From the NCBI GenBank assembly GCA_003611875.1, contig RAYY01000009.1:62001-126000 (forward strand): a stretch of DNA of 64,000 nucleotides, read 5' to 3'. Below the pieces are notes generated by a model. It did not search any database. It saw only the letters and a list, made by a program, of their open reading frames with translations, and was not told the DNA's origin. Position numbers and translations under genes: made by a program. Positions within the stretch are counted from its first letter, which is position 1. Every line of letters begins with the position of its first letter. Below are positions 47,358 through 64,000 of the stretch, piece after piece. The DNA comes from a bacterium D16-56 (lineage in GTDB: Bacteria > Bacillota > Clostridia > Lachnospirales > Lachnospiraceae).

Positions 47358-47986
47358 TCAGAACTTACCATTTTTTAAGGGATTCACCGGATTTCTGACA
47401 GGCTCTCCCTTTGCAAACCGAACCGCCTCCTGGGCTGCCTTCCTCTTTAGTTCCAGAGCGGATTCCTGAGAATACCAAGCCATGTGAGGACTGCATAGGA
47501 AATTGTCAAGGGCAAACAAAGCCGCCCCCACCTCTAAGGGCTCCTTCTTCACCACGTCCAGGGCTGCTCCGGCAATCATCTGCTTCTGTAGTGCCTTTAA
47601 AAGATTCTCCTCATTGACAATCCCTCCCCGGGCAGTGTTTACCAGAATTGCACTGGACTTCATTTTCTTAAAAGCAGAATCGTCAAACATGTTTTCCGTA
47701 TCTTGGGTCAGAGGGCAGTGGATGGAGATCATATCCGATTCCGCCAACAAAGTATCCCAATCAACTATCTCCACCCCTGCCTCTACAGCTCCGGTCTCAG
47801 CCTTTCCATAACCCTTCGTGTAAAGGGGCCATACTGGGTCATAAGAATCTCTCCGCCCTTAGCCTGTTGGATCAGATCCTCCTCTGTTTTGCACACAAAA
47901 TGCTCAAAGGTCATTCCCTCCTTTTCAAAAGCCTCCTGCTCCTGGATCATATTCTCATGATCACAATCTATAACAATGACTCTCAT
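47358..47986 (-). pseudogene. D-2-hydroxyacid dehydrogenase, internal deletion
   Basis: The N-terminal part (47783-47986) has RVIVIDCDHENM and GEILMTQYGPFTRRVMERL. The C-terminal part (47358-47774) has DMISIHCPLTQDTENMFD, LVNTARGGIVNEENLL and the catalytic His region SPHMAWYSQES. Roughly 80-130 residues with the GxGxxG NAD-binding motif are missing at the join near 47780, and the frame changes. First of several fragments of a lost catabolic cluster. Confidence 0.8.
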
Positions 47987-48264
47987 TTATTGTTTCCTCC
48001 TACTATTTCACTAGATATCCGCCCGTCTACCGGAATTACTGCTCCATTGAGATAATCCGATGCCGCTGATGCAAGAAAAATCACGACCCCATTCATGTCC
48101 TGGCCGGTTCCCCATCGGTGAGCCGGAATCCGATCTGTGATTTTTGCATATCGAGGATTGGCCGGATCCGTCAAAACTGCGTTCATCTCTGTATCCATAT
48201 AACCAGGGGCAATACAAATCATATACCCAGTCAAATCCGCCAGTCCTGCAGCATTCCTGGCCAA
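47983..48264 (-). pseudogene. Short-chain dehydrogenase, C-terminal fragment
   Basis: Encodes APGYMDTEMNAVL, RIPAHRWGTGQDMNGVVIFL and ASDYLNGAVIPVDGG-like ASDYLNGAVIPVDGRISSEI, the conserved end of gluconate 5-dehydrogenase-type SDRs. The N-terminal two thirds with the Rossmann motif and Tyr-Lys pair are gone. The segment is fused to a different dehydrogenase fragment at about 48264. Confidence 0.75.
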
Positions 48265-48522
48265 AAGTACCCATATCTGTCTTTACAGGATCGATTACCT
48301 GGAAACCAAGACTGGCACGGGTCTCATCCGTCTCTGAAATAATCACCTTAGAAGCGCCGAATTTCCGTAAAGTGATGGCTATGGCAATCCCGATCGTGCC
48401 GGCTCCCGGAACAATGGCATTGTCTCCCGGCACAAATCCAGTTTCCCGAAGGGCATGGACCGTAACTGCAATCGGCTCCACAAAGGCTGCCACCTTGTCA
48501 GCAACCGTATCCGGAACAGGAA
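48265..48522 (-). pseudogene. Zinc-type alcohol/sorbitol dehydrogenase fragment
   Basis: Reads KVAAFVEPIAVTVHALRETG, then the coenzyme-binding VPGAGTIGIAIAITLRKFGA and LGFQVIDPVKTD. This is the middle of a medium-chain dehydrogenase; both ends are missing. Confidence 0.75.
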
Positions 48523-48798
48523 TGATCGAAAGCAGCCGCCAGCCTTCTCACCGCAGACGATGTTGTGGCAGCCGGCGCCACCATCGTCGCCATTACCTCT
48601 GCCCCTGATTCCACCATGGCTAGGCTGGCTGATTATGTACTCTACTACAGCCATGACATCCCAGATGATATGCACTACATGTTCCTTCCCAACATTTGCG
48701 AGATCACCATTTGGGGAATCATTCAGTCTGCACTCTTTTTAAATAACCCAACCGGCCTGAATCCCTCCATAAATGCTATTCTGTCTAACCGAATGTAA
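48523..48798 (+). pseudogene. RpiR-family regulator, SIS-domain fragment
   Basis: On the plus strand: SLLTADDVVAAGATIVAITS, PDSTMARLADYVLYYS and FLPNICEITIWGIIQSALFL, the second half of an SIS sugar-phosphate-binding domain, ending at 48798. The DNA-binding N-terminal domain is gone. It lies back to back with the dehydrogenase fragments, as a regulator and its operon would. Confidence 0.7.
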
Positions 48799-56480: not shown

Positions 56481-56518
56481 GTGAAGCCTATTGAATTATC
56501 AAAGGCTTCACTCTTTTT
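56481..56518 (+). terminator. Terminator after the heptad-repeat gene
   Basis: GTGAAGCC (56481-56488) and GGCTTCAC (56504-56511) form a perfect 8-bp stem followed by TCTTTTT. Confidence 0.85.
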
Positions 56519-56519
56519 A

Positions 56520-56713
56520 AGTAAACCTGTATGCGCCCGGCGGCGGACGCGCCACCAATCATGAAAGCTTGGCGGGCGCATTTGGCATCCCTGATTTTAA
56601 ATCGCCTCCGGCGGATGCACACAAAATGCCAAAAGCGGGCATTTTGGCTCGTTATACGGTCAGCGCAGCCAGTGCGCAGACCTCCAGCAGGGATTCGAGA
56701 CTTTCACAGTAAG
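56520..56713 (+). repeat. Dispersed palindromic repeat, copy D (with about 80-bp insert)
   Basis: Starts GTAAACCTGTATGCGCCCG, pairs ATGCGCCCG with CGGGCGCAT, then TTTGGCATCCCTGATTTTAA. The second hairpin is split after CCTCCGGCG by about 80 bases that contain another hairpin (AAAATGCC 56623-56630 with GGCATTTT 56638-56645); the element then ends GACTTTCACAGTAA. Confidence 0.8.
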
Positions 56714-56757
56714 TTATAACACATAAATACCATGCAAATCATCTCATCCCTCATACT

Positions 56758-57891
56758 CTATAGCGCCTTTCCCAACTCCCTCACCACATTCTCAATTTCT
56801 TCTACCTCCAAATAAGGATGAATCGGAAGACAAAGCACCCTGTTACAAAGCTCCTCTGTCACCGGACAATCTGCATCCGCAGATCCTGTACCTTCAAATG
56901 CCCCCTGCCTGTGCATGGGTTTTCTGTAATAAACCATAGTGGGAATACCTGCTGCTTTCATTCTTCGCTGTATGGCATCCCGGTCTGCACCGACAGGAAG
57001 CTGCACCGTATACTGTGCCCATGAGCTGTAAAAGCCATCCGGCGTCACCGGAAGCACCACCCCCTCTATCTTCCTTAAAAGATCTGTATACCGATCTGCC
57101 GCCCGATTCACAGCCTTCAGTTCATACTCCTTAAAAGCCTTAAACTTGGGCATTAAAATCGCTGCCTGCATGGTATCAAGCCTGCTGTTCATCCCCAGTC
57201 GTACATTATCATACTTATCATCTGCATTCTTTCCATGGACCGCTATGGATCGGCACAGCGCGGCAATCGCATCATCATCGGTAAAAATAGCCCCTCCATC
57301 TCCATAACATCCTAAAGGCTTTGCCGGAAAAAAGGATGTGGTGGAACTATCTCCAAAACTGCAGCACTTCCGTTCCCCCATCCTTCCCCCAAATCCCTGG
57401 GCGCCATCCTCTATCAGCAGCAGCCCGGACCTGTCACATACAGACCGAATGGCATCATAATCTGCAGGCAGGCCAAACAAATCCACAGCTATAACCGCCC
57501 GGGGCTTTAGCCTTCCCTCTGTCTCCACACGCTCTATGGCTTTCTCCAAAGACAACACATCCATATTATAGGTATCACGCCGCACATCCACAAAAACAGG
57601 AACCGCCCCAATTCCTGCCGGACATTCCCCAGAGGAAAAAAACGTAAAATCCGGCACAAAGACTGCATCCCCCTTTCCTACCCCATAAGCCATTAGAGCA
57701 ATGGTGATGGCATCTGTACCATTTCCGCAGGAAATGCAATGTCTTGTTCCTACATATTCGGCAAGCATCTGCTCCAAAGCTGTTACCGCTTCCCCAGATA
57801 TAAAATGAGCAGAGGATATAACCTCTGCGATTTTTTCATCAATAGATATATGAAGTTTTTTGTATTGACGATTTAGATCTCTAAATTCCAT
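56758..57891 (-). CDS. DegT/DnrJ/EryC1/StrS aminotransferase
   Basis: 377 residues, PLP-dependent sugar aminotransferase. Seen: FRDLNRQYKKL, CGNGTDAITIAL, VDLFGLPADYDAI, EDGAQGFGG, and the PLP-lysine in TTSFFPAKPLGCYGDGGA; then NSRLDTMQAAIL. Close by pattern to enzymes that transaminate a 3-keto or 4-keto UDP-sugar for surface glycans. 180 bases separate it from the SDR gene; it may share that transcript or have its own promoter. Confidence 0.88.
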   Translation of the reverse strand: MEFRDLNRQYKKLHISIDEKIAEVISSAHFISGEAVTALEQMLAEYVGTRHCISCGNGTDAITIALMAYGVGKGDAVFVPDFTFFSSGECPAGIGAVPVFVDVRRDTYNMDVLSLEKAIERVETEGRLKPRAVIAVDLFGLPADYDAIRSVCDRSGLLLIEDGAQGFGGRMGERKCCSFGDSSTTSFFPAKPLGCYGDGGAIFTDDDAIAALCRSIAVHGKNADDKYDNVRLGMNSRLDTMQAAILMPKFKAFKEYELKAVNRAADRYTDLLRKIEGVVLPVTPDGFYSSWAQYTVQLPVGADRDAIQRRMKAAGIPTMVYYRKPMHRQGAFEGTGSADADCPVTEELCNRVLCLPIHPYLEVEEIENVVRELGKAL

Positions 57892-58073
57892 GATTTCCTT
57901 ATCCCCTTTTATAAATCTTCTTTTATAATGTAACGACTTACTGTATTGATTTTATGAACTCTCTGCTGCAATACGCAGAGGTCTCCCAAAGATCTAACGA
58001 AAAAACTGCCAGCTTTTCCGTACATCCCAATATTTTCCTCAATGAATATTGCTTTCTTAAAAATCATCCTGTC

Positions 58074-58820
58074 CTATCGTGTCCCTCCCGTAACCCCAAT
58101 ATTCTGTCCCGTTACAGCCTGTGTCCCATCTGAAAGAAGATATTGAAACAAACCTATCACATCATCCACCCTAATATTCCTCCCCAAAGGATTATTTTCT
58201 GCATTTTGCCGGATTATGATTTCCTGAATTTCAGATAAAAATTTCGTCTCCATCATGTCAGGGGAAACTGCATTTACAGTAATCCCCTTGTCCGCATATT
58301 CTGCTGCCAGGCTTCGCATCAATCCATATAAAGCATATTTGATTGCTATATATGGACTCTGAAATTTAGGCGGAACATTTCCCAAAATATAAGATGTAAG
58401 CATAAAAACAATCTTACCATATCTTTTTTTCTGCATTTTTGGAATCAAACTTTCTAAAATAAGTACAATCGAACGCAGAGAGGTGTCTATTCCTCTTTGG
58501 TAATGCTCCCACTGACATTTATGAAACTGCAAATTAAAAGCTTTCTGTGAGGCCAAATGGACAATATGATCCGGATAAATTCCCGAATCCATAATTTCTG
58601 TTATCATCTTTCTAACACTGTTTTCATCAGAAAAATCTGCTCGAACCGGAATGATCTTTTCCCCGTATTGCCGCTTCCATTCCTCTGCAATATCCTCCGA
58701 ACGGTTAAAATGGCTCCACACATACTGATAATTGTCTATAACAGCCTCCAATAGTCCACAGCCAACCTCTGATGAAGCGCCTGTCAGTAATAAAACCTTA
58801 TCCTTTTTTATCCAACACAC
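58074..58820 (-). CDS. SDR-family oxidoreductase (ketoacyl reductase-like)
   Basis: 248 residues. Nucleotide-binding TGASSEVGCGLLE; active-site Tyr-Lys in SPYIAIKYALYG; end VTGQNIGVTGG. The likely start is GTG 58820, since the frame is closed by TAG just before it. The poly-G tract of the upstream MaoC gene lies nine bases upstream, so its length could also affect initiation or coupling. With the MaoC protein it could reduce and dehydrate an acyl chain; substrate unknown. Confidence 0.82.
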   Translation of the reverse strand: MCWIKKDKVLLLTGASSEVGCGLLEAVIDNYQYVWSHFNRSEDIAEEWKRQYGEKIIPVRADFSDENSVRKMITEIMDSGIYPDHIVHLASQKAFNLQFHKCQWEHYQRGIDTSLRSIVLILESLIPKMQKKRYGKIVFMLTSYILGNVPPKFQSPYIAIKYALYGLMRSLAAEYADKGITVNAVSPDMMETKFLSEIQEIIIRQNAENNPLGRNIRVDDVIGLFQYLLSDGTQAVTGQNIGVTGGTR

Positions 58821-59224
58821 CTACTTTTACCCCCCCCCCGCACCACTTTTTCCTTTTTTTGATTCGTTATATCAACTTTCAGTACAATCTGCCGTACTGT
58901 ATCATTTATCTCATGAACCACACCATGTACCCGCAGCACATCCCCAATATATACCGGTCTTACGAATTTTATTTCTACGCTTTGAATAAGGCTCCTCTCC
59001 CCCGGTAGATAAACACCTGCCAATGTAGAAAGAAACGATGCTGTCAGCATGCCATATGCAATCCGCTTTGGATATCCATGAGCTTCTGCAAATTTTTCGT
59101 CCGTATGAAGCGGGTTGCAGTCACCTGTGATATCTTTAAAACGCTCCATCATATCATCCGTTATCCTCACACAATATTCCTGCTCCATCCCAACCTGTAT
59201 GTCTTCATATCTAAAATAATTCAT
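58808..59224 (-). CDS. MaoC-like dehydratase, C-terminus set by a G10 tract
   Basis: 138 residues as read, hot-dog fold. Hydratase motif ITGDCNPLHTDEKFAEAHGY with Asp and His; AYGMLTASFLSTL and YLPGERSLIQS. Start 59224 follows GGGGAGG. The last residues after KKEKVVRGG are set by ten G's; with nine the end would be KVGVLDKKG, which looks like a normal MaoC terminus (141 residues). Likely acts on a hydroxyacyl or enoyl group on CoA or carrier protein. Confidence 0.8.
   Translation of the reverse strand: MNYFRYEDIQVGMEQEYCVRITDDMMERFKDITGDCNPLHTDEKFAEAHGYPKRIAYGMLTASFLSTLAGVYLPGERSLIQSVEIKFVRPVYIGDVLRVHGVVHEINDTVRQIVLKVDITNQKKEKVVRGGGKSRCVG
58830..58839. repeat. Poly-G tract (10) in the MaoC gene
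   Basis: Ten C on the plus strand, ten G in the message. One of the two longest G/C runs noticed in the window. Confidence 0.9.
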
Positions 59225-59247
59225 CACAGCCTCCCCTGCCAAGCCTT

Positions 59248-60772
59248 TCAAAAATTCTGATAGATAAATCCACTGACATCATATCCGGGTCCATAAAATC
59301 CAAAAACAATGATGGAAAATATCAGCATATAATAAATGCTCCATCGAAAGACAAGATTTTGCTTTGCAAGCATTTCTCTGACTCCGCTGCCTTGTGTCCT
59401 AAGCTTCTGCTGCTGTACTGACACCAGAAATAAAATTCCAAGAGCCACCCCCCCCTATTATGAAATCTGGAGTATCTAATCCCAGCTTCAAAAGAGAGCC
59501 ATCTGTAAAAATCCAAATATTAGGATAGAAAGAAGCCTTGAATATTTTTAACGCTGTCCGAAAACTTTCAGCACGAAAGAATACAAATCCTGTGCAAACC
59601 AAAAAACCTGTACGCAGACTTTGAAACAAATGATAGCTAAAACATTCTGTATTCACATGTATCCAGGCAATCATTTTTTGAAACAAAGGATCCAAAATCT
59701 GACCGCCTGCAATATAAAAACAATGAAGCAAACCAGACCCCACAATATACTTCCAGGAACCGCCATGCCATAATCCAACTGTAAACCACAAAATGACCAT
59801 TCCTAAATAAGTAGGAACCTTCTTTCCTCTCTTTTTTCCCAATCGCCCCTTTGACCATTCTCCAATCCTTACAAAAAGATCCGACTTCAAGACCGGATAA
59901 AACACATAATCCCTCATCCAGCTTCCCAGGGTAATATGCCACCGCCTCCAAAACTCGGAAAGTGACCGAGAAAAAAACGGAGTATTAAAATTTTCCGAAA
60001 TCCGGATCCCTAAAATTTCCGAAGCTCCTGCCGCAAGATCGATTGCTCCTGAAAAATCCGCATAAAGCTGGCAGGCAAAACATATTGTGGCAAATATAAC
60101 ATAGCAGCCCTGATACGTGTGATAATCCCCATAAATCGTATCCACCACTACCGCCATCCGCTCCGCAATCACCAGCTTTTTAAATAACCCCCACCCCATT
60201 CGCTGCAGGCCAAATACCACCCTTTTATAGTCAAAATTCTTTTCTTCATATAGAGAATCCGCCATTTCTCCATACCGATTAATGGGACCGGTAAGCAACT
60301 GAGGAAAATAACAGGAAAAGGCCGCATAACGAATCAAATTCCTTTGAGCCTGACAGGTTCCCCGGGCAACATCAATCAGATATCCCAGCACCTGCAATGT
60401 ATAAAAGGAAATTCCTAAAGGAACTATAAATGAAAACTCCTGCAAAAAAATCTCTTTGTCCATTAACTCACCAGCAAACCGACCTGTATACACAAAAAAA
60501 TTCAGGTACTTGCAAACAGCTAAGGCCCCTGCATTGATCAGCAATACACCATAAAACCACCATGTTTTCTGCCTTTTCGAAACAGCATCCTCCATCCTTA
60601 CTGCTCCATACCAAGTAGAGGCAGTAGCTGCCAAAAGGGAGAAAAACATTGGCGCTCCCCCTGTCAGACCGCAAAAAGCCAGACTTCCTGCTGCCAGAAG
60701 ATGTATCTGAAAACGTTTCGGAATAAGATAATAGCCCACTAAAAAGCACACAAAAAGCAGCAGAAAACTCAT
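59248..60772 (-). CDS. MBOAT O-acyltransferase (DltB-like), out of frame at a G8 tract
   Basis: Polytopic membrane acyltransferase. Seen: FIVPLGISFYTLQVLGYLID, NFNTPFFSRSLSEFWRRWHITL and the catalytic region with His336 (LWHGGSW) and His350 (GSGLLHCFYI). As read the frame stops at 59399 (457 residues) after GGGGSWNF. With seven instead of eight G's it would go on as FIIGGVALGILFLVSVQQQ to FGFYGPGYDVSGFIYQNF (507 residues, stop 59248), a normal MBOAT end. It starts in the stop of the carrier gene (4-base overlap). By family it passes an acyl group from a carrier across the membrane. Confidence 0.88.
59448..59455. repeat. Poly-G tract (8) in the MBOAT gene
   Basis: Eight C on the plus strand (eight G in the message) at the point where the MBOAT frame is lost. 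Confidence 0.9.
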
Positions 60773-61011
60773 TTCACCCGTTCCTCGATGATGTCCGCCA
60801 TTTCTCCCACATTTTTCATTCCCGTAACCTCACCCATCGTAAACTTAATTCCAAAACATTTCTCAACTGCTACAACCAGATTAATATGTTCTAAGCTGTC
60901 CCAATCTTCAATATCCTCAGCCGTTGTCGTATCCTTTAAGACAATGCCGCTGTCATCAAATATGTCGTGAAATACTTCCTCCAGCCTTTCAAATATCTCT
61001 TTCCTTGTCAT
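60769..61011 (-). CDS. Acyl carrier protein (dedicated, DltC-like)
   Basis: 80 residues, acidic, four-helix carrier protein. The phosphopantetheine attachment serine is Ser39 in EDWDSLEHINLV. It lies between the FkbH-like gene and the MBOAT gene (GGAG ten bases before the ATG; 4-base overlap with MBOAT), so it is a dedicated carrier rather than the fatty-acid AcpP. Confidence 0.92.
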   Translation of the reverse strand: MTRKEIFERLEEVFHDIFDDSGIVLKDTTTAEDIEDWDSLEHINLVVAVEKCFGIKFTMGEVTGMKNVGEMADIIEERVK

Positions 61012-61032
61012 TTCCCTTACACTCCTTTCCTT

Positions 61033-62880
61033 TCACTCAGGACAAACAGGTGATAAAACGATCTGTTTTTCAACTGATTCTTCCTCTATCTGAATCACAT
61101 CATTTTTCTTCTCATACCCTGCAGAAAGATCTAATTTCCAAATGGTATTGCCAAGGTCATCTTCCGAAACCTTTTCAAATCCCTGCAAAGCATAAAATTC
61201 CTTTACCATCTTGTTCTTCTTTGTTGGGTAGTAATAGCCAAAAATCTCATTAACCCCTTTTTCCTGGCACTGTCTCACCAAAGCATCCATCATCGCAAAT
61301 TCCATATTCCTTTTTAAAACCCGGCAGCTCATTAACCACAAGTCAATGTGAAATCGTTTCGGAAAATCAGAATCCAAATGACCAAACACCACAGAAACCA
61401 CCCCATTATCCCCAAACCGATCCTCCAGCTTTCCATAAAGGGTAATGTTTCCCGAATCTTTTGCGATTCCTTCCAGCTCTGCCAGACTGCATCTTCTGGT
61501 GGTAAGGTTGAACTGATTGCTTTTGCCTGTAAGCTGAGAAATCCTGGACATATAAGCCGGGGAAAATGTCCTGATTTCCGCCCTCATTTCCAAAGAGCGG
61601 AGATAATCTTCATAATTCTCAAAACCCGCTTCCTGCTTTTTCCTGGCAGCATTAGCCTGATACATCTGGTTACGTCTTAAATCATCCGAAGAAAAGGCCG
61701 ATACCTCAAAAAAACCAGAACGATCCAAAATTTCAATATACCGCTCTGGCTTTTCCATCTCCGGAACCGCTGCCTCTGGTATCTGTAAGCTGACAATATG
61801 CCGTTCGGCAGGATTATCATCCACGAAAACCAGGCTTTCCACCCCTACATTCAATTCCTCTGCGATCCGGAGCAAATTCTGATCCTTAGAATCCCAGTTT
61901 GCCTTTATTACCAAAAAATCATCGGGTTTTAAAATACTATCCGGACGATTCAGTCCCGCCAGCGCATTTTCTTCTTCATTTTTCGAATCAATCGTCAGCA
62001 TTATCCCAAGATCCTTATGAGCCTTCACATATTGCTGAAATTCACTATACATCTGCCCCACAGAAGTCTCCTGGCCAATCTCAATCCGGTCTGGTCCATC
62101 ATCCCCTACAATACCACCCCACAACGTATTATCCAAATCCAGTACAAAAGCCTTCTTATTTTTACCATAAATCGACTTAATCAAATTTGCCAGATTGTAC
62201 GCCAGCTCCGGAATAGCCGGAACTGCCAAAGCATACTTGTACATATGCCAATAAAACGGATCCGCCCACCTCTGAAGTCCATAACAAGACGCCAGATAAT
62301 GAATGTCCTGAATATAAAAATTCTCATGGCTTTGGGCATATAAATAAAACCGCTCATTCAAACGGTTCACAAAATTTAACCCGCCATGAAAATCCCATAC
62401 ATCCCGATTTCCCAAAAGGCGGTAAAAAGGAGGTTCAAAGTTATTTTGAATAACCGGACAATGGTAAGTCTCTGAAATTTTCTCCCACATTGCCTCAAAC
62501 GGCTGGTAGACCTTTTCAGCAAGCTCTGCCACCTCCTCCTGCGAATTTCTTACCGTGGGAAAATCCATAATATTACGGGTACTGGTATGAATATAAATCA
62601 CATCCGGACAAAACTCTGATAGTTCCACAGAATCAAACATAACATCCTGCCAGTACTGACCATATTCCGACTCATAAAAAATCGGCTCTATACCATGCTT
62701 CAAAAGAAAAAGCTCTAAAATCTCTTTCATATCATGGGTAGTCGAACCGCCGAGAACTGCAATTTTCTTTTTTATATAAGTCATATCCCTGGACTTCAAC
62801 TGCCTTTTGATTGCTTTTCTCTTTTTTAAAATGTATTCTGAATCCAGCGGATACTCCAACAAAACCGCATCCCTTTCCAT
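61033..62880 (-). CDS. FkbH-like HAD-IIIC acyl loading enzyme
   Basis: 615 residues from ATG 62880 (AAAGGAG upstream). Three parts: an N-terminal SGNH-like region (AVLGGSTTHDMKE, about 40-230), the HAD phosphatase domain with D248 and D250 (FVLDLDNTLWGGIVGDDG) and VFVDDNPAERHIV, and a C-terminal GNAT-like domain (RFGDNGVVSVVF, about 510-600). Characterised FkbH proteins take 1,3-bisphosphoglycerate, remove phosphate and load glyceryl onto a carrier protein. It is followed by the carrier gene after 21 bases. Inference: it charges that carrier for the MBOAT. Confidence 0.88.
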   Translation of the reverse strand: MERDAVLLEYPLDSEYILKKRKAIKRQLKSRDMTYIKKKIAVLGGSTTHDMKEILELFLLKHGIEPIFYESEYGQYWQDVMFDSVELSEFCPDVIYIHTSTRNIMDFPTVRNSQEEVAELAEKVYQPFEAMWEKISETYHCPVIQNNFEPPFYRLLGNRDVWDFHGGLNFVNRLNERFYLYAQSHENFYIQDIHYLASCYGLQRWADPFYWHMYKYALAVPAIPELAYNLANLIKSIYGKNKKAFVLDLDNTLWGGIVGDDGPDRIEIGQETSVGQMYSEFQQYVKAHKDLGIMLTIDSKNEEENALAGLNRPDSILKPDDFLVIKANWDSKDQNLLRIAEELNVGVESLVFVDDNPAERHIVSLQIPEAAVPEMEKPERYIEILDRSGFFEVSAFSSDDLRRNQMYQANAARKKQEAGFENYEDYLRSLEMRAEIRTFSPAYMSRISQLTGKSNQFNLTTRRCSLAELEGIAKDSGNITLYGKLEDRFGDNGVVSVVFGHLDSDFPKRFHIDLWLMSCRVLKRNMEFAMMDALVRQCQEKGVNEIFGYYYPTKKNKMVKEFYALQGFEKVSEDDLGNTIWKLDLSAGYEKKNDVIQIEEESVEKQIVLSPVCPE

Positions 62881-62884
62881 CTGT

Positions 62885-63898
62885 TCACTCCTTTCCTTCC
62901 CTCGCCGATAAATACCCTGCCAAGTATCTGCTAATTTCTTCAGCGCCTTTCCCGTTAAGATGCATCTCATCCTGAAAGCTTTCTTTCGTCAACCCCAGCT
63001 CACTCATAGTAATCTGGTTCAGATCCACATATTCAATCTCATTCTTTTCACTGAAAGTAAGAAAATAATCATAAATATCCGCATAATTCGGTTCCCGCTC
63101 AAGATAATCAGGATATACCGGCAAAGAAATAAATAACAGTTCACAACCGTATTCTTTACACAAAGAAACCATCTTCTGCAGGTATTCTAATTGCAAAGGA
63201 TATAAATCCTCCCTACTCCATGGGACCTGAAGATAATCACCTGACTCATAAACCCGAGTTGAATAAACAAAGCCCTTTCCGTCATACCACTCATCGCCTG
63301 TCTTTGCCTTGGAATAATCACATTCCTTATAGGACGAATCCAATAAATGCATTCTTATATTTTGCAGCACCTTCTTAGAATCCTTCCAGGCTTCTTTATA
63401 ACGCACAATATTAGAAATGGTTGTGATCCCATACTCCGGCTTTCCTAAAACCTCATAAGCATACTGAAGCTTATTGATGCCAAACGGCATATAATCCAAT
63501 AAAATATGCGTTCGAATGGTCGAATCTCCAGGATAATCCTGAAACATAATATAATTGATGTCGTAGACTACTTTTTCAACATGGTGATGCTTTAGGATCT
63601 CTTTTAAACGGAAATAACTGTCCTCCGGCCTCTGAGAAGACGATCCTGCGTTAAATGTTAAGGCGTTTAGAGAGCAGTCTAAAATTTCTGGATCTATACC
63701 ACGATATACCCTGGAAGCTCCCAGCCACAAATAGTCGATTTCATCTTCCTGCTGCAATTCATAAGCGCTGATTCTTGTGTAGGAGTTTTTGTCGTTGGTG
63801 AAACCGAAGGATAGTAATTGTGCAATAATAAAAAATCCCATAGAAAAAATTATACTTTTTAAAATAATTTGTGTTGTAGAATTGTTCTCATTATCCAT
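62885..63898 (-). CDS. Membrane-anchored SGNH-type acyltransferase/esterase (DltD-like role)
   Basis: 337 residues. N-terminal membrane helix (about 12-32), then an exported domain with the nucleophile-type motif LWLGASRVYRG (Ser62) and the catalytic pair D310-x-x-H313 in QDEMHLNGKGAEEI. This layout matches DltD and AlgJ/AlgX-type proteins that finish transfer of acyl groups outside the membrane. First gene of the operon; overlapping spacing with fkbH is 4 bases. The 100 bases upstream hold no clear promoter. Confidence 0.82.
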   Translation of the reverse strand: MDNENNSTTQIILKSIIFSMGFFIIAQLLSFGFTNDKNSYTRISAYELQQEDEIDYLWLGASRVYRGIDPEILDCSLNALTFNAGSSSQRPEDSYFRLKEILKHHHVEKVVYDINYIMFQDYPGDSTIRTHILLDYMPFGINKLQYAYEVLGKPEYGITTISNIVRYKEAWKDSKKVLQNIRMHLLDSSYKECDYSKAKTGDEWYDGKGFVYSTRVYESGDYLQVPWSREDLYPLQLEYLQKMVSLCKEYGCELLFISLPVYPDYLEREPNYADIYDYFLTFSEKNEIEYVDLNQITMSELGLTKESFQDEMHLNGKGAEEISRYLAGYLSAREGKE

Positions 63899-64000
63899 AT
63901 CAATTGTTCCATGCCCTATTTATTAAGTTTACTGTTATCCTGCATATCCATCCACATTCCAAAACAAATATTTTAAAAGGAAGGTTGATGACCAACATAA

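Follow-up and report, generated by a model that had tools for sequence, protein, structure and literature searches.

A candidate Dlt-like surface acylation operon with an FkbH enzyme in place of the adenylating loader, putative lactyl tailoring and possible poly-G switching

Many bacteria attach alanine to surface polymers. What would such a machinery transfer if DltA, the adenylating enzyme that loads it, were exchanged for an enzyme of another kind? This question is raised by an operon of the Lachnospiraceae bacterium D16-56, contained in a stretch of 64,000 nucleotides (assembly GCA_003611875.1, contig RAYY01000009.1, positions 62,001 to 126,000), the whole of which is called the window below. 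Six minus-strand genes, between positions 58074 and 63898, encode in this order an SGNH protein, an FkbH enzyme, a carrier protein, an MBOAT acyltransferase, a MaoC protein and an SDR reductase; a DegT aminotransferase gene follows.

We consider it fairly probable that this is, as a whole, a Dlt-like surface acylation operon in which FkbH has replaced the adenylating loader, the acyl group is tailored to lactyl, and poly-G runs act as switches. FkbH would take D-1,3-bisphosphoglycerate, transfer its glyceryl group to the carrier protein and remove the phosphate. MaoC would dehydrate the glyceryl-carrier to an enolpyruvyl-carrier, pyruvyl-carrier after tautomerisation, which SDR would reduce to lactyl-carrier. 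MBOAT would then carry the acyl group through the membrane, from the carrier onto the tyrosine of its own C-terminal FxYxxF motif, and the SGNH protein would receive it and esterify with it a hydroxyl on the surface polysaccharide whose synthesis the adjoining cluster encodes. Tailoring and transfer would be phase-variable owing to two poly-G runs, of which one lies in maoC and the other immediately ahead of the shuttle tail of MBOAT. An MBOAT-SGNH machinery would thus apparently be run from a glycolytic intermediate by an enzyme known from antibiotic pathways, and the operon predicts concrete surface structures, namely lactate or glycerate esters.

Gene content and loading enzyme

The preliminary description of this DNA had named the same six genes, and domain calls locate each of them as listed here; two frame breaks, at eight G in MBOAT and at ten G in MaoC, had been overlooked.

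62885..63898, minus strand: SGNH protein, predicted final transferase; presumed catalytic Ser in GAS (close to the N-terminus) and Asp/His in DEMH (close to the C-terminus)
61033..62970, minus strand: HAD-IIIC enzyme of FkbH type, presumed to act as glyceryl transferase/phosphatase and to load the carrier
60769..61011, minus strand: acyl carrier protein with DSL phosphopantetheine motif
59399..60772, minus strand: MBOAT acyltransferase (DltB-like) as assembled, its final residues coming from a foreign frame
59448..59455, minus strand: eight-G run (coding strand), site of the MBOAT frame break
59248..59454, minus strand: family-like MBOAT tail in another frame, with FIYQNF acyl-shuttle motif and a stop immediately after it
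58808..59251, minus strand: MaoC, (R)-hydratase/dehydratase-like, with D-x-N-P-x-H motif; its C-terminal end is out of the family frame
58830..58839, minus strand: ten-G run (coding strand) close to the C-terminus of MaoC and just ahead of the SDR gene
58074..58820, minus strand: SDR reductase (FabG-like) with Y-x-x-x-K motif, presumed to carry out keto-reduction of the carrier-bound acyl group
56758..57891, minus strand: DegT/PseC-like sugar aminotransferase (Pfam, NCBIfam), a downstream neighbour outside the acyl unit

FkbH, carrier, MBOAT, MaoC and SDR passed curated cut-offs of Pfam or NCBIfam; the SGNH protein did not. As called, 21 bp separate FkbH from the carrier gene and 147 bp MBOAT from MaoC, while carrier and MBOAT genes overlap by 4 bp, MaoC and SDR by 13 bp, and SGNH and FkbH by 86 bp. 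The last overlap is probably an artefact of choosing the longest start, since many FkbH relatives begin about 30 residues later; the true FkbH start probably lies near 62880.

Is the loader really of the FkbH type? The protein scored 39.8 bits against FkbH_N (cut-off 27), 274.3 against TIGR01686 (cut-off 146.65) and 58.8 against TIGR01681 (cut-off 35.75). DLDxT, as well as Cys549 within SCRV, is invariant in an alignment of 23 FkbH proteins that includes the window's, and among all 140 long FkbH proteins DLD.T is found in 132 and SCRV in 137. For polyketide and peptide pathways, enzymes of this kind are reported to build glyceryl-carrier out of 1,3-bisphosphoglycerate (PMC7489565, PMC8949500, PMC10099666; papers are cited throughout for the portions of their text available to us). 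The window's carrier reached 21.5 bits against PP-binding (cut-off 20.8), has the DSL motif and finds 2lml as its top solved-structure match (E 4e-19). None of the seven window proteins scanned matched the AMP-binding family; FkbH stands where DltA would.

If loaders can be swapped, related loci with an adenylating enzyme are to be expected. One locus of the same genus, L227, contains between positions 598 and 5626 a carrier (18.3 bits, below the 20.8 cut-off), an MBOAT, an SGNH protein, one further open reading frame and an AMP-binding enzyme (221 bits, cut-off 29.9), and FkbH is absent from the 5.7 kb of sequence examined there; it therefore matches the loader-swap prediction. The MBOAT of L227, which is the fuller locus of L183, neighbours the FkbH-linked MBOAT set described below, and its surroundings resemble Dlt in layout, including a loader of the customary kind. 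The genome of D16-56 itself holds a second, distant FkbH gene (G000:C120:22578-23873, L096; 31% identical), accompanied by a carrier gene and by G runs of 8-11 nearby.

Linkage with MBOAT and the route of transfer

Next, the neighbourhoods of FkbH genes were compared. FkbH relatives (E up to 1e-20) were found in 63 of 299 sampled genomes of the family, that of D16-56 included. The loci studied comprise 60 larger ones from family genomes and 80 from named genomes, the latter being the best 80 of at least 585 confirmed stretches and thus near relatives, not a census; the nearest FkbH relatives of known name come mostly from Lachnospiraceae and other Clostridia. Neighbours were counted within 5 kb on the same strand, and loci with complete 5-kb flanks are called fully flanked. 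Among these, a carrier gene lies by FkbH in 46 of 48 family and 43 of 47 named loci and an MBOAT gene in 26 and 34, respectively; for SGNH the numbers are 13 and 14, for MaoC 8 and 10, for SDR 6 and 5. The survey for a conserved gene set, which had been set beforehand in the preliminary description, thus bears out the association: scoreable loci (the window included, loci cut by a contig end entering only when positive) have the carrier in 128/134 cases, MBOAT in 92/126, SGNH in 39/106, MaoC in 33/109 and SDR in 22/105.

A family genome contains about 3.3 MBOAT genes (333 in 100), so that by rough arithmetic random placement predicts less than 1% linkage. The linkage between FkbH and MBOAT is far above chance, the contrast being overstated because both kinds of genes favour polysaccharide clusters. 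In a FastTree tree of 140 FkbH proteins, MBOAT linkage would have to change at least 20 times. Chance neighbourhood of FkbH was set aside on the linkage counts. The gene set is common in Clostridia sampled from gut and rumen, bacteria about whose surface glycans little is known.

The window's MBOAT lies above the Pfam cut-off, has the DltB structures 6bug and 8jem as its best solved matches (E about 1e-20) and contains LWHG. The DltB equivalog model TIGR04091 is its sole NCBIfam match, with a score of 143.6 bits that falls under the cut-off of 375. FxYxxF resides on DltX in Dlt and on the MBOAT itself in PatA, and the tyrosine of the motif passes the acyl group to the SGNH protein (PMC12148441). 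Of 99 MBOATs from FkbH loci, 95 have an FxYxxF-like end (Y..[FIYV]); it is missing in the window's, in that of L049, in the second MBOAT of L039 and in that of L155, which a contig end truncates. As assembled, then, the window's MBOAT is without an acyl-shuttle tail. No DltX-like microprotein was found on the minus strand of positions 56501-64000, where F.Y..F immediately followed by a stop occurs solely in the out-of-frame tail of MBOAT.

Does the carrier feed the MBOAT? In the MBOAT tree (FastTree, midpoint root, with long-branch warnings), 37 of the 41 carrier-adjacent MBOATs, the window's among them, fall into one set of 62 rows (support 99). The only two controls within it, L179 and L180, turned out to be FkbH operons; the next larger set, of 69 rows (support 100), adds L182 and L183. 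This grouping, together with the overlap of carrier and MBOAT genes, supports the carrier as the presumable acyl donor.

One may suppose instead that MBOAT O-acetylates the polysaccharide from acetyl-CoA, and that FkbH, carrier, MaoC and SDR feed a separate N-acyltransferase. Related loci do pair FkbH and carrier with N-acyltransferase-type proteins, and 40 of 100 MBOATs of FkbH loci stand outside the 62-row set, so that many MBOATs may be chance neighbours or users of acyl-CoA. Moreover, 37 of 38 control MBOATs have the shuttle motif (four of these controls belong to or resemble carrier-type loci); since controls have it equally often, the motif marks mechanism, not donor. On the other hand, the window's MBOAT belongs to the set that gathers the carrier-adjacent ones, and a Pfam scan finds no N-acyltransferase among the proteins of the operon. 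MBOAT and N-acyltransferase neighbours of FkbH also show a trend towards substituting for one another: of 16 pairs, 0.3 were same and 5.3 opposite (median p 0.06). For the window operon we regard acetylation from acetyl-CoA as quite improbable.

Against the DltD model PF04914 the SGNH partner reached 21.5 bits, the cut-off being 22.7. By eye, it begins with a hydrophobic stretch. Among 22 aligned, divergent SGNH proteins including it, G60 and H313 are invariant and S62 nearly so; by Pfam, DltD is matched by the window's protein alone, Lipase_GDSL_2 by three and DUF1574 by three.

Besides the 40 outlying MBOATs and the motif-bearing controls, further results weigh against transfer by a carrier, MBOAT and SGNH protein acting together. 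A profile search of the window's SGNH protein against solved structures gave nothing significant, and its identity is suggested by motifs and a sub-threshold DltD match. By crude patterns, G[ASD]S occurs in 36 and D..H[LFY] in 17 of 53 SGNH-class proteins, the MBOAT histidine in 86 of 99 MBOATs, and DS[LIVM] in 114 of 130 carriers.

How does the window operon stand among known systems? With Dlt it shares the carrier protein, an MBOAT matching DltB structures, the FxYxxF motif, out of frame in the window, and an SGNH partner. It differs in having FkbH where Dlt has the adenylating DltA, in its additional MaoC and SDR, in its place within a surface-polysaccharide cluster and in an MBOAT below the DltB equivalog cut-off; in FkbH loci, too, the shuttle motif ends the MBOAT, whereas Dlt has it on the DltX microprotein. 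PatA/PatB and other MBOAT-SGNH O-acetyltransferases likewise combine an MBOAT bearing C-terminal FxYxxF with a separate SGNH protein, and according to the same authors such pathways besides Dlt lack a similar carrier, a carrier donor being described for D-alanine only (PMC12148441). Unlike PatA/PatB and AlgIJX-type systems, which use an acyl-CoA donor and no carrier, the window operon contains a carrier gene, overlapping MBOAT, and a presumed loader. Glyceryl transferase/phosphatases of polyketide and peptide pathways resemble it in that FkbH lies beside a stand-alone carrier (PMC7489565), but no polyketide or peptide synthase was recognised near the operon, and its acceptor would presumably be a surface glycan. 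By the tests applied, it is a putative variant of MBOAT-SGNH acylation outside the Dlt family. Comparison thus favours what the preliminary description had proposed, a Dlt-like set with FkbH in the place of DltA, the carrier as presumed donor, and MBOAT and SGNH protein as transferases.

A polyketide cluster was set aside, no synthase having been recognised, and so was a fatty-acid donor, as neither ligase nor ketosynthase was recognised by eye.

That the system is undescribed, as also suggested there, holds in part. No description of a carrier-fed MBOAT route with FkbH was found in the literature searched, nor anything linking glyceryl-loaded acyl carrier protein to a polysaccharide. In the available portions of the FkbH literature no polysaccharide MBOAT system is described, and FkbH was found paired with MBOAT only in cyanobacterial work on aeruginosin-type peptides. 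Glyceroyl decoration as such is known, in the form of an amide: Campylobacter jejuni flagellin bears a di-O-methylglyceroyl amide on pseudaminic acid (PMC3068675).

Identity of the acyl group

Since the carrier would receive a glyceryl group, the role of MaoC and SDR has to be explained. Both lie above Pfam cut-offs, SDR being below the cut-off for every NCBIfam subfamily shown. The MaoC motif D.N[PS][LM]H is present in 32/32 and a loose Y...K pattern in 25/25 SDRs. The two genes co-vary strongly (median p 0.0005; 15 independent pairs, 12.1 same and 0.1 opposite). Between MaoC and MBOAT no such tie is seen (13 pairs, 2.6 same and 3.8 opposite; median p 1). FkbH, carrier, MaoC and SDR occur without MBOAT beside a GNAT protein (L063) or a hexapeptide transferase (L045), and because of this the donor unit appears separable from the transferase: FkbH and carrier, with or without MaoC and SDR, look like a unit feeding different transferases.

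A glyceryl-carrier is a 3-hydroxyacyl thioester and therefore the type of substrate that MaoC dehydratases use. Since MaoC and SDR are gained and lost together, independently of MBOAT, we think, on chemical reasoning, that they convert glyceryl-carrier to lactyl-carrier. In the window operon a reduced C3 acid, for example lactate, is then a likelier transferred group than glycerate, which would be expected where MaoC and SDR are absent or off. The preliminary description had named a glycerate ester; as worded, this finds no support, MaoC and SDR behaving like a paired tailoring unit and a lactate-like C3 acid being the likelier product.

Glycerate itself could still be transferred, with MaoC and SDR serving another step. 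The commonest arrangement is indeed an MBOAT with neither MaoC nor SDR within 5 kb (22/26 family and 26/34 named fully flanked MBOAT loci), and C. jejuni provides a known glyceroyl decoration of a surface glycan (PMC3068675). For the window, where MaoC and SDR overlap each other and come after MBOAT, and in view of their co-variation and their adjoining FkbH and carrier even at loci without MBOAT, we find transfer of unmodified glycerate rather unlikely.

Another candidate product is (R)-3-hydroxybutyryl or another short 3-hydroxyacyl group, a common sugar substituent, which MaoC and SDR would supply while FkbH had a different or auxiliary role. The best solved match of MaoC is an (R)-specific enoyl-CoA hydratase, SDR is FabG-like, and L228 joins FkbH, carrier, MaoC and SDR to what look by eye like genes for a sialic-acid-type sugar. 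Sugars of this type can bear 3-hydroxybutyryl. Yet MaoC and SDR adjoin FkbH and its carrier, an adjacency partly due to design because the search started from FkbH, and inspection by eye of the window, L006 and L225, made without profiles, revealed no ketosynthase-like gene. We accordingly give such a substituent little credence, and continue with lactyl as the favoured group.

In the loading module of bryostatin, FkbH is accompanied by a dehydratase and a reductase, an arrangement for which no supporting paper was found in the literature searched. The lactyl step has its own difficulties. It is derived by chemical reasoning; an FkbH module with a dehydratase domain is known in which the domain is thought inactive by its authors (PMC4552970); an SDR match occurs without MaoC in L049 and L074; and MaoC has no SDR within 5 kb in L070, L072, L073 and L165, while the SDR of L113 is about 7 kb off. 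Two further loci with MaoC and no SDR, L053 and L146, end at a contig end.

Six loci (L099, L109, L117, L118, L149, L159) contain FkbH, carrier, MaoC and MBOAT without SDR, together with a split, two-subunit transketolase pair recognised by eye (families confirmed for L117 only); four of the six also have an aldo-keto reductase, again by eye. This suggests yet another acyl group, possibly a branched one.

Resemblance to C. jejuni takes several forms. C. jejuni and the window operon both have an FkbH gene (in C. jejuni the FkbH-domain gene cj1302, among the genes compared in a study of flagellar glycans) and a homopolymeric G/C tract, and the surface-glycan group derived from glycerate that is known there is predicted for the window operon. 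But in C. jejuni an amide joins this group to an amino sugar, and no MBOAT step is described in the available portions of the sources (PMC3068675, PMC7099621). In L073, FkbH adjoins an Antibiotic_NAT protein and a DUF4910 protein, relatives of both of which are held by L070, and L073 looks closer to the C. jejuni system than the window operon does. Cj1295 we take to be a DUF4910 protein, a family with no match in the whole genome of D16-56. More widely, L070, L073, L059, L126 and L141 have, in the vicinity of FkbH, both a DUF4910 aminopeptidase-like protein and an N-acyltransferase of Antibiotic_NAT type (families confirmed for L073 only), an arrangement reminiscent of the glyceroyl-pseudaminic acid genes of C. 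jejuni.

Poly-G runs, frame breaks and surroundings

Two genes of the window operon are out of frame near their ends. From the eight-G run onwards, the MBOAT frame has a foreign tail, the expected family tail (FIYQNF and stop) lying in another frame; MaoC diverges from the family frame at the ten-G run close to its C-terminus. Upon comparison with two loci of the same genus, L225 and L226, both arranged as SGNH-FkbH-carrier-MaoC-SDR-MBOAT, G runs of 10 (L225) and 14 (L226) were detected near the MaoC C-terminus, a few residues from the site of the ten-G run in the window. The MaoC frame of L226 continues into SDR. The MBOAT frame ends with FIYAGF in L225, and in L226 at a seven-G run which by eye corresponds to the site in the window. 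Aligned over 5,895 bases, L225 and L226 share 93.7% identity and differ by 369 mismatches and three indels. According to the gene calls of L225, one of these indels separates SGNH from FkbH in position; another is within the MaoC tract, and the third, of a single base, at the edge of the MBOAT tract. Because two of three indels sit at the MaoC and MBOAT G runs, phase variation is suggested. A locus of another genus, L052, has its MBOAT split into two pieces at an eight-G run.

Long poly-G runs are found elsewhere in the genome of D16-56. It has 16 runs of at least 10 G (overlapping hits merged), 15 of them outside the window. Seven of the 15 lie in genes for sugar, acyl or methyl groups (by Pfam: methyltransferase, asparagine-synthase-like, FdtA, formyltransferase, GNAT, MBOAT, AlgX-like); the remaining eight are in unrelated, unknown or intergenic places. 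The G run cuts the family match in L189 (asparagine-synthase-like) and L192 (AlgX-like; its MBOAT is in frame), while in L185 and L191 it coincides with the end of the matched domain or lies beyond it. The presence of long poly-G runs in surface-glycan genes suggests that this Lachnospiraceae-like genome uses poly-G phase variation. Contigs C22, C110, C116, C120, C127, C133, C157 and C179 carry the long runs.

Cj1295 of C. jejuni contains a homopolymeric G/C tract (PMC3068675), and by analogy the G-run pattern of the window may be read as phase variation of the same kind. The operon is probably phase-variable at its poly-G runs, as judged from assembled genomes. If the runs do switch, commensal Lachnospiraceae-like bacteria would have a phase-variable surface chemistry, with relevance to phage receptors and host recognition.

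Is the operon simply decaying or misassembled, its frame breaks being ordinary lesions or homopolymer sequencing errors without any phase variation? Assemblies are the only type of data, and homopolymer assembly error in G tracts is possible; two broken frames occur within one operon. G/C runs of at least 8 are no more frequent than a first-order model predicts (2 in the window, 3.7 expected), and since the count does not exceed expectation no argument can be drawn from abundance. Related loci (L038-L177, 2.15 Mb) hold 34 such runs, of which one lies in the broken MBOAT of L052 and two in FkbH genes (L111, L157), none being in their MaoC genes; the MaoC of L228, a same-genus locus with FkbH, carrier, MaoC and SDR and no MBOAT, is also without one. 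In the L225-L226 alignment, the base missing at the MBOAT site pairs with an A adjacent to the G run; the MaoC run shows a substitution in addition to its single indel. Both details of this alignment speak for decay or error. Against mere decay or error stand the placement of two of only three indels in 5,895 bases at the two tracts, the presence of a G run in both regions in the window as well, and the seven of 15 outside runs in sugar-, acyl- or methyl-group genes. We therefore hold decay or misassembly to be somewhat unlikely and prefer phase variation.

A bolder version of the switch, which we put forward tentatively as an unlikely extension, has three states: lactate with the MaoC tract in frame, glycerate with it out of frame, and no transfer with the MBOAT tract out of frame. 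It would also make such operons a second carrier-fed MBOAT-SGNH class besides Dlt, fed from glycolysis, with exchangeable tailoring (MaoC/SDR or split transketolase and aldo-keto reductase) and exchangeable transferases. If this is true, slippage of two poly-G runs would give one operon three surface chemistries.

The operon forms the tail of a surface-polysaccharide cluster that fills about 19 kb of the contig past the window (L006, from about 1 kb on). By Pfam, the cluster encodes a bacterial sugar transferase, a UDP-GlcNAc 2-epimerase, a UDP-sugar dehydrogenase, a MurJ-type flippase, a hexapeptide transferase, a sulfotransferase, a cytidylyltransferase and a piece of a CDP-glycerol glycerophosphotransferase. 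This piece (L006 3899-4345, 148 amino acids) appears truncated or broken, because its match covers only positions 219-366 of the 367-position family model. Within the window, positions 47983-48675 contain overlapping fragments in different frames, short-chain dehydrogenase-like and zinc-type dehydrogenase-like, which by eye look like decayed genes.

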